Under the pieces are notes generated by a model. That model did no database searches. It had not been told where the DNA came from and worked only from the letters and a program-made list of their open reading frames with translations. DNA of 64,000 bases from Treponema sp. CETP13 (GTDB lineage Bacteria > Spirochaetota > Spirochaetia > Treponematales > Treponemataceae). Positions 44,221 to 48,395 of this stretch are shown piece after piece. Position numbers and translations under genes: made by a program. Position 1 is the stretch's first letter. Every line of letters starts with the position of its first letter. The DNA is taken from contig MLPZ01000003.1 in assembly GCA_001885315.1 (NCBI GenBank), positions 62,001-126,000 on the forward strand, given 5' to 3'.

Positions 44221-46056
44221 TTACTTGCTTTCATATTTTATTCCTAAAGTTAGAGAGCGAGATGGGGCATAATAACCATCGTCATGATACGAATAACGCT
44301 CATCTAAAAGGTTTTCGCCTTTTACATACACAGAAAAAGAGTTTGTAAAGTCGTAATTAATCCGACATGATAGCAATTGTACTGGATCATAGCTAATGGT
44401 ATTTGTATTGTTTTCGTACCGCATGCCAATATAATGGAATCCTGGCCCAAAGGTAAAATGCCCAAGCGTCATATACGTATACAGAGTCCATTCAAAATAC
44501 GGAACCCACATAATTTGGCAGCCGTCAGGAAGACTTGCACGTGTATAGGTGCCATTAAAATCATACGAAAAAAGATTATTCCAAGACTCAGTTGAACTTA
44601 CTTGTACGGTATAATAGGTGCCAGTTTCATCCATATTTTGAGTTGTACCATTTGTCCAATATATTTTGTCATAGTATTTAGAATAGCCTAACTCAATTCC
44701 AAGCCAGGTAAAATGTTTCCAATCAAACAAAACACCAAATCCATGTTCAGGATCCAAATCTTTGTTTCCGTTGTAATACTCACCATCCCAATACAACTGA
44801 TTAAACGTCGGCAGTGAAAACTGTCTATAAACAGAAAAACTAACATCTGCAGGTATAAAACTAAGCGTTGCGCGAGGTAAAAATGCAAACCACTCATTAC
44901 TGCCAGAATACACCATACCTGCGACCGTTGGCGCGAATAAAAACTTCTGCCCAAAATACCAATCATACGAACTTGCGATATAACTGTCTATGCGATATGC
45001 ATCGGATGAGTCGGAATAATCAAAATCTGACACAGTTGAAAAATGTAAGTTATCTTTGAAAGTAGCGGAAACAGAAAAACTTGTCTGATTTATATCTGTA
45101 TCGTTTTCTACCAAACCAGAATCTATGTATGAAATAAAATTTGTTTGATTTGTAAGAGATGTTTTTACGGTTCCCCATGTAGGAACAAATCGTACATATA
45201 CTGTATTGAATAAATTATATTCGTTTGATGTGCCCACATCTGAAGAACCCGAACCATAGGCTTTATTTTTATTGTACGAAAATTTCGTTGTTCCACCCAT
45301 TTTTCTCGTATCCGTTATGGGATAAGACCACGTAATAGAAGGTTTTACCATAAACGCATTATTATTCTCGTTAACGGTGTCATTGGGATATAAATATTCA
45401 TTTTGCGCACTTACCACATTAAGACCTAACTTGTAAAAAAAGGAACCAATATAATTGCTGTACCTTGCAGAAGTATTATAAGTGTCAAAAACATTACTTT
45501 CATATGACAGCACAGAAGCGTCTATGGTAAAATGCTCAGAACCAAACTGTGCTGTAGAGATTGAAATAACAGAACCAGCAAACTGAGATTGAGACAGAAG
45601 AGGTGTCGATGAAATTGTTATTGATTGAATTGATGCAACATCAATTGAGTTCCAATCAAATTCTCCGCTCGTTCCAAGATTTGCCAAAACGCCATCCACG
45701 TATACTTTTATACACGTGGATGTATAGCCTTTTATCGAAACATCCGAAGAAGAACCAACTCCGCCATTATTTAAAACGAGTACACCTTTTGCACTTAGAA
45801 ACGTCTGTAAACTCGTAGCACCAGTCTTTGTAATATCACTTGCAGTAAAGGTGACAGAACTGTTTTGTTTAGAGTAGATAGTAGTTTCTATAGTACCAAG
45901 GTCTATTTCATCCGCGAATGCAAAATGGCAAAGCATATTTGACAAAAAGAAAAAACACAGGATTGCACAAAGAGCCTTTTTTGTTGTAAAAAACCAATAA
46001 AGAACTCTTTGCACTGTACCTAATATAGTTTTATACATTTTAAGCTTAATTATCAT
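44221..46056 (-). CDS. TonB-dependent outer-membrane receptor, BtuB-like
   Basis: A 611-residue (or 605 from a second in-frame ATG) outer-membrane protein. A signal region (LCAILCFFFLSNMLCHFAFA) is followed by a TonB-like box region and a plug domain: TASDITKTGATSLQTFLS and SSDVSIKGYTSTCIKVYVDG, then a beta-barrel rich in alternating aromatic residues, ending ERYSYHDDGYYAPSRSLTL, the usual receptor C-terminal pattern. Plug sequence and the leader upstream suggest cobalamin or a similar corrinoid; this is inference. It overlaps the lipoprotein gene by 11 nt and is cotranscribed. No TonB/ExbBD genes are near. Confidence 0.82.
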   Translation of the reverse strand: MIIKLKMYKTILGTVQRVLYWFFTTKKALCAILCFFFLSNMLCHFAFADEIDLGTIETTIYSKQNSSVTFTASDITKTGATSLQTFLSAKGVLVLNNGGVGSSSDVSIKGYTSTCIKVYVDGVLANLGTSGEFDWNSIDVASIQSITISSTPLLSQSQFAGSVISISTAQFGSEHFTIDASVLSYESNVFDTYNTSARYSNYIGSFFYKLGLNVVSAQNEYLYPNDTVNENNNAFMVKPSITWSYPITDTRKMGGTTKFSYNKNKAYGSGSSDVGTSNEYNLFNTVYVRFVPTWGTVKTSLTNQTNFISYIDSGLVENDTDINQTSFSVSATFKDNLHFSTVSDFDYSDSSDAYRIDSYIASSYDWYFGQKFLFAPTVAGMVYSGSNEWFAFLPRATLSFIPADVSFSVYRQFSLPTFNQLYWDGEYYNGNKDLDPEHGFGVLFDWKHFTWLGIELGYSKYYDKIYWTNGTTQNMDETGTYYTVQVSSTESWNNLFSYDFNGTYTRASLPDGCQIMWVPYFEWTLYTYMTLGHFTFGPGFHYIGMRYENNTNTISYDPVQLLSCRINYDFTNSFSVYVKGENLLDERYSYHDDGYYAPSRSLTLGIKYESK

Positions 46057-46660
46057 CTAAAGTAGCATCAGAAGAATAAGTATACGTCCCCATATCATAC
46101 GGAAGATACGCTAGCCCATAAAGCTCTGAGTCAAAACAGGTAACTAGAGAACCGTTATCAAAAGTTTTGCAGTATTCTGAAAATTTTATTTCAACACTGC
46201 TAACAAACTCAAACATAACCGGAACATAGCAATCTCTATCGTTATCATCTTCCGAAGTATAGGTTTCCTGTGTATAAGAAGGATAGGAGTAAGCATAAGC
46301 ATTTTCATGATAATCTGCTTCGATTAATCCCATATAAACCGTGTCTCCATCTGTGTTAGAGTCTTTAGCATATGCTACAATATATCCAGATGTAGTTGTT
46401 CCAGAATAATCAATGTTCTCATAAGTATACGAATACTTATATTCATAATAGACAGCAGAATCTTTTTCTGAAAGTGTAAGGCTATCGCCAGCAGTAGTGC
46501 TATACGTGTTACCAATATAATCACTAAAAAGATTAGCAATTGCTTCTGAATCATCAATAATCGTTACATCAGAAGAATTAGAATCAAAACTACATGATAC
46601 TAATAAAAAACAACCAACAAAAAAAGAAACAATAAGAGTCATTAGGCATGACTTTTTCAT
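46046..46660 (-). CDS. hypothetical lipoprotein ahead of the TonB receptor
   Basis: A 204-residue lipoprotein: signal peptide with lipobox LVSC (Cys near residue 23), then an acidic, Tyr/Ser/Thr/Asp-rich mature protein with no recognised domain. The start MKKSC has GGAGGT nearby (46667-46672); a longer frame runs 41 codons upstream through the leader terminator and is not real. Because it is the first gene under the riboswitch-like leader and overlaps the receptor gene, it may be a surface or periplasmic partner that binds the same ligand, as lipoproteins do in SusCD-type pairs. Confidence 0.75.
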   Translation of the reverse strand: MKKSCLMTLIVSFFVGCFLLVSCSFDSNSSDVTIIDDSEAIANLFSDYIGNTYSTTAGDSLTLSEKDSAVYYEYKYSYTYENIDYSGTTTSGYIVAYAKDSNTDGDTVYMGLIEADYHENAYAYSYPSYTQETYTSEDDNDRDCYVPVMFEFVSSVEIKFSEYCKTFDNGSLVTCFDSELYGLAYLPYDMGTYTYSSDATLDDN

Positions 46661-46693
46661 AAAAATACCTCCAGAAGCAGGGCGTGTACTTCT

Positions 46694-46722
46694 AAAAAAA
46701 TAAACTTCCACACAAGAAGTTT
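46694..46722 (-). terminator. leader terminator before the lipoprotein-receptor operon
   Basis: On the minus strand AAACTTC and GAAGTTT (7 bp, 7-nt loop TTGTGTG) are followed by ATTTTTTT. It lies between the folded leader domain (46733-46800) and the Shine-Dalgarno at 46667-46672, where an attenuator should be. Confidence 0.75.
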
Positions 46723-46732
46723 TTATAAATAA

Positions 46733-46800
46733 TTTTATGGTAATAGGACTTTTATACCTCTTCACTCCAAGCCGGGACTGCAACCCGATTCCCCATAAAA
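46733..46800 (-). promoter_or_regulatory. riboswitch-like leader, possibly cobalamin class II
   Basis: On the minus strand a 68-nt domain is closed by a perfect 8-bp stem TTTTATGG/CCATAAAA. Inside are GGAA, a hairpin CGGG-TTGCAGT-CCCG (46773-46787) with a 7-nt loop, a 13-nt segment, and AGG-loop-CCT ahead of ATTACCAT. The order and sizes (P3 closing stem, GGAA junction, 7-nt loop P4, short P6, then the 3' strand of P3) resemble class-II cobalamin riboswitches, but the sequence is divergent. The downstream BtuB-like receptor supports the idea. The structure is seen directly; the ligand is inferred. Confidence 0.5.
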
Positions 46801-46961
46801 CTATCTTTTTACAATAATGTCGTTAGTATAAACACTAAACCATCTTTTTTACTAGTACCTAAAGTTTTAACGAGACTTAAATAAAATTTTAGCTATAAAA
46901 AGGATAATATATTATTCTTTTTTGCTGTTTTAAGCATAAATAGCTCATATATTATCTTTTA

Positions 46962-46996: not shown

Positions 46997-47278
46997 ATGA
47001 TTGATATAGATTCACTTGTAAAGACTGTTCCCGAAATACAGAAAACCGTAGCAAATAATTTTAAAATGCGGCGAAAAGAACACAAAATCACTCAGCTAAC
47101 ATTAGCAGAAAAAGCAGGAGTAAGTCTTCCTAGCTTAAAACGCTTTGAACAAACAGGCGAAATATCATTCAAAAACTTACTAAAAATTTCACAAACTTTG
47201 GGATATGAAAAAGAATTACTTTCGCTTTTTTCAAAGCCATATTATACAAACATAGAGGACTTACTTCGTGACTCATAA
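46997..47278 (+). CDS. hipB: HipB-like XRE-family antitoxin
   Basis: A 93-residue protein with a Cro/C1-type helix-turn-helix (about residues 20-75: MRRKEHKITQLTLAEKAGVS then LKRFEQTGEISFKNLLKI). Position directly ahead of hipA and an 11-nt overlap identify it as the antitoxin and autorepressor of a type II toxin-antitoxin pair. The promoter gives no 5' leader, so any operator must overlap or precede the start codon; the A/T-rich alternating sequence around 46985-47005 is a candidate. Confidence 0.85.
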   Translation: MIDIDSLVKTVPEIQKTVANNFKMRRKEHKITQLTLAEKAGVSLPSLKRFEQTGEISFKNLLKISQTLGYEKELLSLFSKPYYTNIEDLLRDS

Positions 47279-48395
47279 CAAACTTACCGTCCGCTACCAT
47301 GACAAAACGGTAGGAACACTCGTTTATTCAGATCATCGAACAAGCTTTCAGTATGCACAAACATGGATTGAAAACGGATTTTCGATTAGTCCATTGTCAT
47401 TGCCACTTAATAATAGCATTTTTACACCTGAAATTGACCCCTTTGGTGGCATTTTTGGTATTTTTAATGATAGTTTACCCGACGGTTGGGGACGACTGCT
47501 AATAGACCGCATGCTAATAAAAAACAATATTGATCCTCATTCTATAACCATGCTTGATCGTTTGGCAATCGCCGGGACATCTGGCATGGGAGCCTTAGAA
47601 TATTACCCAGAAGAACATTTTACATTCAAACATGATATTGATTTAAACCTTGATAAAATTTCACAGCAATGTAAGCTTGTTTTACAAGATAAGCCAAGTG
47701 ACAATTTAGATTATTTGTTTCGAAATGGCGGTTCATCAGGAGGAGCTCGCCCTAAGATTTTTAAAAAAATTGATAACGAAGAATGGATTATTAAATTTCC
47801 ATCATCACAAGATTCTTTAAATATTGGATTGCAAGAATATGAATATTCAAAATGCGCTCAAAAATGTGGCATAAATGTACCCAACGTTCGTTTATTTGAT
47901 TCTGCAAACTGTGCAGGTTATTTTGGAATACAACGCTTTGACCGCATAAAAACTACAAAAGTACACATGGCATCTGCTTCTGCTTTGCTCGAAACATCGC
48001 ATCGATTACCAAATCTAGATTACATTCAATTATTAAAATTAACAAAGTTTTTATGCAAAAGTGAAGCTGAACTCAAAAAATTGTTTGCGCTCATGTGTTT
48101 TAATGTATTTGCACACAATAGAGATGACCATAGTAAAAATTTCACTTTTTTATACATAGCTGATGCAGAAAACAAACAAAAAGGCTGGCATCTCTCCCCT
48201 GCCTATGATTTAACCTATAGCAACTCAATACAGGGAGAACAGGCCACGACAATTGCTGGTGAAGGTAAAAATCCCACTTTAGAAAATATATTGACAGTTG
48301 CAAAAACTATTGGACTTTCAGCATCATATGCAAAAACCACGGCTCAAAATATTCAAGAAATTGTAATGGCTGATTTAGCAAAATACTTACAATAA
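47268..48395 (+). CDS. hipA: HipA-like serine/threonine kinase toxin
   Basis: A 375-residue HipA-family kinase. The N-terminal Couple_hipA region (LTVRYHDKTVGTLVYSDHRTSF) is followed by the activation-loop-like GGSSGGARPKIF, WIIKFPSSQD with the ATP-binding Lys, the catalytic loop AHNRDDHSKNF and metal-binding PAYDLTYS. Known HipA toxins phosphorylate glutamyl- or tryptophanyl-tRNA synthetase and cause dormancy. It is shorter than the 440-residue E. coli protein. It starts at a GTG that overlaps hipB by 11 nt, with GAGG upstream. Confidence 0.9.
   Translation: MTHNKLTVRYHDKTVGTLVYSDHRTSFQYAQTWIENGFSISPLSLPLNNSIFTPEIDPFGGIFGIFNDSLPDGWGRLLIDRMLIKNNIDPHSITMLDRLAIAGTSGMGALEYYPEEHFTFKHDIDLNLDKISQQCKLVLQDKPSDNLDYLFRNGGSSGGARPKIFKKIDNEEWIIKFPSSQDSLNIGLQEYEYSKCAQKCGINVPNVRLFDSANCAGYFGIQRFDRIKTTKVHMASASALLETSHRLPNLDYIQLLKLTKFLCKSEAELKKLFALMCFNVFAHNRDDHSKNFTFLYIADAENKQKGWHLSPAYDLTYSNSIQGEQATTIAGEGKNPTLENILTVAKTIGLSASYAKTTAQNIQEIVMADLAKYLQ

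Follow-up and report, generated by a model that had tools for sequence, protein, structure and literature searches.

The described systems closest to the locus studied here are the compact cobalamin riboswitches. The AdoCbl-II family (RF01689, also called AdoCbl-variant) has been described from marine sequences (PMC2864571). A UCU in J6/3 marks class IIb (PMC11260477), and the L5 loop of cobalamin riboswitches is described by conserved cytidines, with the consensus UCCCG (PMC10653944, PMC11260477). In E. coli btuB and in env8HyCbl, the L5-L13 contact controls the hairpin that contains the Shine-Dalgarno (SD) sequence (PMC10653944). We analyzed the leader of a lipoprotein-receptor operon in the window, the whole 64,000-nucleotide stretch of Treponema sp. 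CETP13 DNA under study. Judging from sequence comparison, this leader is very probably a lineage-specific version of a class-II cobalamin riboswitch that acts as a translational OFF switch and would control corrinoid uptake.

The full element lies on the minus strand, as do all parts given below, and spans from about 46814 down to the start codon at 46660, which differs slightly from the extent of 46667-46830 given in the preliminary description. Its aptamer domain (46723-46814) is a class-II cobalamin riboswitch variant consisting of a P1/P3 arm, P4, P5 and P6. The strands TTTTATGG (46800-46793) and CCATAAAA (46740-46733) pair and enclose 68 nt, and both the sequence and the fold confirm the 68-nt domain with 8-nt closing strands that had been described. 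They correspond to P3, whose 5′ strand UUUUAUGG (46793-46800) and partner CCAUAAAA (46733-46740) are also supported by covariation (helix 1 of alignment A6, see below). P1 (UUGUAAA at 46808-46814 with UUUAUAA at 46723-46729) is a proposed helix, read from the sequence alone. The J3/4 junction GGAAU (46788-46792) carries the class-II GGAA motif. P4 (46773-46787; A6 helix 2) is CGGG/CCCG closed by the 7-nt loop UUGCAGU, the hairpin that had been noticed before. A small hairpin does follow it, as had also been reported, but there are in fact two: P5 (CUU/AAG around GGAGUG, 46760-46771), whose loop L5 (46763-46768) provides the aptamer side of the kissing loop, and P6 (AGG/CCU, 3 bp, around the 9-nt loop UAUAAAAGU, 46745-46759; A6 helix 4). 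The domain is without the P7-P12 extension, as expected for class II. J6/3 reads AUUA (46741-46744) in alignments A2 and A4, where the nearest relatives have AAUG and the substitutions are confined to the window copy. In class II riboswitches, J6/3 and J3/4 line the ligand pocket. The resemblance to class II in the order of elements (GGAA in J3/4, 7-nt L4, short P6) is thus borne out, and so is the departure from the class-II consensus at conserved positions, namely in L4 and J6/3.

In the Rfam scan of the whole window, the leader found no match at the gathering thresholds, and the search of a 361-nt piece missed it as well. When a 94-nt piece was searched in isolation, the top family was AdoCbl-II at 46730-46803 (21.9 bits, E 0.0027), which is below the RF01689 gathering score of 36.5 bits. 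The alignment nevertheless runs end to end and follows the order of P1-P3, P4, P5 and a short P6. RF00174, the class I Cobalamin family, had no match in the whole genome of the host. The orthologous leader L045 exceeds the AdoCbl-II gathering score with 45.9 bits, so Rfam already covers part of the group through L045-like members, and two near relatives score 29.9 (L048, also listed as L082) and 22.2 bits (L089). RF01689 matches below about 20 bits are mostly chance or class-I elements. A covariance model, R2, built on eight leaders from other Treponemataceae with the window left out, scored the window leader at 54.9 bits (E 2.6e-11, 46726-46808) as its sole match in the 2.5-Mb genome. Among the 394 genomes of the order that were searched, R2 matches were restricted to Treponemataceae.

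The folding energy of the leader (z -1.75; matched by 8 of 200 shuffled sequences) is by itself weak evidence for structure. Covariation is more telling: P3, P4, P5 and P6 all covary in A6. Because the 28 members of A6 (27 distinct) were fitted to the model, this alignment is biased towards the structure, yet its paired cells (86.7% versus 58.9% shuffled and at most 44.1% slid), double-change cells (137 versus 45 and at most 42) and covariation score (0.683 versus 0.189 and at most 0.142) lie far above the slid control, which retains relatedness. P4 is paired in 94% of cells with double changes at all five pairs of the aligned helix, and P6 in 98.8% with double changes from C-G to A-U and from G-C to U-A. 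The inner pairs of P5 vary across members (U-A/A-U and C-G/U-A/G-C/A-U), and all four Watson-Crick forms of the inner pair are seen among relatives. The outcome that would have spoken against the element, stems without covariation across homologous leaders, was therefore not observed, and the covariation together with the leave-one-out model shows that the leader is structured far beyond chance.

No clear kissing partner had been recognized in the preliminary description. However, L5 (GGAGUG) pairs with L13 (UACACGCCCUG, 46678-46688), the loop of a hairpin lying some 80 nt downstream. When L5 positions are counted 1-6 and those of L13 from U1 to G11, the five pairs in the window are G1-C9, G2-C8, G4-C5, U5-A4 and G6-C3, and A3 stands opposite G6-C7. 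The L5 loops of relatives (GAAAUG, GACGCG and others) differ in sequence, and at the same five positions they give GA.AUG/CAU..UC, GA.GUG/CAC..UC, GA.GCG/CGC..UC and GG.GAG/CUC..CC, among other combinations. Over 12 unique loop combinations, chosen by eye, 59 of the 60 pairs are Watson-Crick and one is G-U, whereas permutation of the loops, which ignores relatedness, gives a mean of 44.7 (p ~1e-5). Since the loops had been picked by eye and relatedness was ignored, we ran an automated test that looks for a loop complementary to the leader's own L5 inside a hairpin of at least 4 bp. A cognate partner was present in 25 of 41 candidate leaders, a set that includes some false, other-type or duplicate entries, versus a non-cognate partner in 11 of 550 trials. 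Two loci found later each have five of five kissing pairs. A second possible pairing in the window, between the loop UGUGU of the middle hairpin described below and ACACG of L13, is absent from relatives and was dropped. Both loops of this required contact have changed their sequence, and this is why the standard RNA database misses the leader.

Downstream of the aptamer, the middle hairpin AAACUUC...GAAGUUU (46702-46722) is capped by GUGU. It is followed by a U-tract (46694-46700) and P13, the stem AGAAG/CUUCU around L13, which together form the putative expression platform (46673-46700). The SD sequence GGAGG (46668-46672) can pair with the U-tract; the GGAGGT that had been noted after the hairpin and U-run is indeed present, with the ATG at 46660. 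In all 13 folded leaders, the SD sequence lies at the base of P13 on its 3′ side and is paired with a U-rich stretch 5′ of P13 in the predicted fold, with pairing probabilities of 0.68-0.99 (0.86 in the window).

The middle hairpin occupies the position of a GUAU-capped hairpin that is conserved in relatives. A GUAU loop directly on at least four pairs occurs in 13 of 38 leaders versus 0.43 in mononucleotide shuffles; the next commonest tetraloop occurs five times. The GUAU-capped hairpin lies mostly 51-61 nt ahead of the start codon, and the tip of the window's middle hairpin is 53 nt from the ATG, although the window's own entry among the 13 is a GUAU overlapping the SD sequence and not this hairpin. 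A GUAU-capped hairpin between aptamer and P13 is kept in B12 leaders of Treponemataceae, at ten loci including L048 and L049 and at others; class-I-like leaders (L117 and L127) are among those that have it. GUAU appears not to be a widespread feature: among the hairpins of the loci retrieved, it is not one of the common tetraloops, and TTTYGTATRAAA shows no enrichment in the window (12 versus 9.5 expected).

The middle hairpin had been described as a true intrinsic terminator. However, its 7-bp core stem has two G-C pairs and a folding energy of -6.2 kcal/mol, which is not the G+C-rich stem followed by a U-run expected of such a terminator, and the terminator scan called none in the leader region. 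Because the hairpin takes the place of the GUAU-capped hairpin and is not called as a terminator, we read the U-tract as the likely anti-SD arm, and for the hairpin, a structural role within the expression platform is more likely than terminator activity. Some termination is possible on account of the U-run 3′ of the hairpin. We also considered that the same aptamer might act by transcriptional control, with the ligand favoring the middle hairpin and its U-run as a terminator and P13 being secondary. An A and seven U directly follow the hairpin, the corresponding hairpin of L049 is stronger and has a U-rich tail, and the arms ACUUC/GAAGU of the hairpin and AGAAG/CUUCU of P13 could exchange partners. 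This exchange is seen in the window only, however, and beyond the weakness of the hairpin, there is no U-run after it in L048 and L069 and no hairpin at all in L045, whereas P13 and the SD sequence are kept; the kissing partner, moreover, sits in the SD hairpin. Transcriptional control is therefore unlikely.

Two further explanations concern the aptamer itself. The deviating J6/3 (AUUA) and L4 sequences would fit a scaffold of cobalamin type that has come to bind a different ligand, be it a corrinoid precursor, another tetrapyrrole or some other compound, and the preliminary description had left the choice between a divergent cobalamin element and a different aptamer. The receptor encoded by the operon is BtuB-like, however, and some relatives sharing the L5/L13 system score above the RF01689 cut-off, which makes such a switch quite improbable; together with AdoCbl-II as top family, the orthologous L045, the covariation and the kissing loop, these points support the divergent cobalamin element. 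The low Rfam score and the J6/3 substitutions, which occur in the window copy only, could also be taken as signs of a degenerate, non-functional riboswitch or of a leader without ligand control. Nonetheless, the window copy retains every core helix and each of the five kissing pairs, which would be unexpected without selection, and we consider degeneration very unlikely.

The first gene of the operon (46046-46660) encodes a 204-aa lipoprotein without a Pfam family, with a cysteine after MKKSCLMTLIVSFFVGCFLLVSC. A longer frame from TTG at 46783, in frame with the lipoprotein, was rejected in favor of the start at 46660 indicated by the SD sequence and the signal peptide. The second gene (44221-46056), which overlaps the first by a few bases, encodes a 611-aa BtuB-like TonB-dependent receptor with a Pfam Plug domain. 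Its best NCBIfam model is TIGR01779 (TonB-B12; E 2e-15, below the cut-off of that model), and the profile of the receptor family matched BtuB chains in the PDB at 1e-10 and the colicin I receptor at 1e-5. The predicted structure of the lipoprotein has a pLDDT of 42, and used as a query, this protein found matches in five genomes including its own, four of them weak. By homology, the operon probably serves B12 uptake. The host encodes a MetH-type corrinoid enzyme. A MetH-like protein of the same genome (L136, contig C9) aligned to a 1182-position model no further than about position 850 and may be without the reactivation domain. Divergent from the riboswitch operon, genes for a HipB-like regulator and a HipA-like kinase lie at 46997-48395 on the plus strand.

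DNA similarity searches with the leader gave only chance matches in its own genome and 39 others; therefore, the receptor was used to find homologous leaders. Its relatives in other Treponema genomes are 30-34% identical, and three of them (L049, L048 and L045) have a leader of the window type. These leaders share GGGAA, the hairpin with the 7-nt loop, C-N-N-[GGAGUG or GAAAUG]-N-N, GGUA and AGUCC.AAUGCC, and an SD-adjacent hairpin with the loop UACA[CU]GC[CU]CUG. Two other relatives have a compact class-II-like element with a possible kissing pair between L5 CUAUU and an AAUAG loop overlapping the SD sequence, and one of the two (L047) scores 25.7 bits with RF01689. The L048 operon continues into BtuF-like and BtuC-like genes; these score below the equivalog cut-offs, so that by these scores alone a siderophore role would be compatible. 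The link of the leaders to corrinoid uptake or metabolism genes is thus one of homology, through the BtuB-like receptor and the BtuF/BtuC-like genes. Across Treponemataceae, the elements precede genes for small lipoproteins, TonB receptors, periplasmic binding proteins of the BtuF kind and CbiK-like proteins, as named from their sequences. Of 274 genomes, 17 passed the RF01689 cut-off, and 61 had a match to the lineage-specific model at E 0.001, a count that includes some ordinary class I/II switches. Elsewhere in the phylum, the elements seen mostly have an ordinary L5 (GCCCG, GCACG). In the literature searched, no publication on such elements in Treponema turned up.

Several other arrangements were observed in the same searches. 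A second AdoCbl-II element (L045:7438-7522, minus strand) lies 2.5 kb from the first in L045 and precedes a small lipoprotein gene facing the receptor gene. At six loci, elements before BtuF-like genes have an ordinary L5 of the CCCGCC type and, close to the start codon, a conserved UUCACGAUGUAUGG in place of the SD hairpin. In a family of AT-rich spirochaetes, which we take to be perhaps Brachyspira, class-II elements with an ordinary L5, observed at eight loci, precede small lipoproteins and, in L174, a MetE-like gene. A lipoprotein family of 169-213 aa without a Pfam match, with the C-terminal motif EFTxxNGYF, was found behind B12 riboswitches at twelve loci. Its predicted fold is beta-rich (pLDDT 88); Foldseek found nothing significant, with T. 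pallidum Tp0751 and lipocalins as weakly similar structures. The lipoprotein of the window is only about 15% identical to this family.

We suggest a putative mechanism for the leader as a translational OFF switch. When corrinoid is abundant, the ligand would occupy the junction and favor the L5-L13 kissing pair. This contact would lock P13 and its extension, in which the U-tract pairs with the SD sequence, and the sequestration of GGAGG would keep the lipoprotein and, through coupling, the BtuB-like receptor from being translated. Under corrinoid scarcity, P13 would open and the uptake proteins would be made. Ligand binding could be changed or lost in the window copy, since its L5 is without the UCCCG consensus and its J6/3 differs even from the nearest relatives. 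We also entertain, as a doubtful extension, that the Treponemataceae elements form a distinct class-II subgroup with a rewired L5-L13 interface (a purine-rich L5 with an internal loop facing a pyrimidine-rich L13) and a GUAU hairpin at a fixed distance, and that the window copy, with its altered J6/3, may have a changed corrinoid preference.

It is through the kissing loop that corrinoid binding acts on gene expression, and descriptions of the aptamer side of this loop usually give conserved cytidines. In the natural family seen here, the L5-L13 contact is retained while both sides change sequence in step, including an internal loop, and this provides a ready set of L5-L13 pairs to test whether identity or only complementarity matters. 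The difference between 17 and 61 genomes given above indicates that B12 regulation in Treponema is undercounted by Rfam. The small B12-controlled lipoproteins are candidate corrinoid-uptake proteins.

Compared with the known systems, the leader resembles AdoCbl-II in its four-helix core order, GGGAA J3/4, 7-nt L4 and short P6 without further extension, but differs in J6/3 and in having GGAGUG in place of a CC-containing L5, and it scores below the family cut-off. Bacteroides BtuB-BtuG loci (PMC10404256) likewise have genes for an outer-membrane B12 receptor and a lipoprotein behind a B12 riboswitch; for BtuG and BtuH, the likeness is one of gene layout, the lipoprotein of the window being a protein of about 200 aa outside any Pfam family. 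The class I riboswitch of E. coli btuB also governs a BtuB-type receptor through a kissing loop that stabilizes the SD hairpin (PMC10653944), but it has a large P6 extension, whereas P6 of the window has 3 bp. With class IIa/IIb (the env8HyCbl type and the ppe2 variant of M. tuberculosis, PMC11260477), the leader shares the GGAA of J3/4, the compact aptamer, the L5-L13 kissing loop general to cobalamin riboswitches and an SD hairpin as expression platform. It differs from them in pairing a purine-rich L5 with a pyrimidine-rich L13, where conserved cytidines are usual in L5, and from class IIb in having AUUA instead of UCU in J6/3. In view of the RF01689 score, the L5 loop and J6/3, we therefore file the leader as a class-II variant rather than as AdoCbl-II or class IIb.
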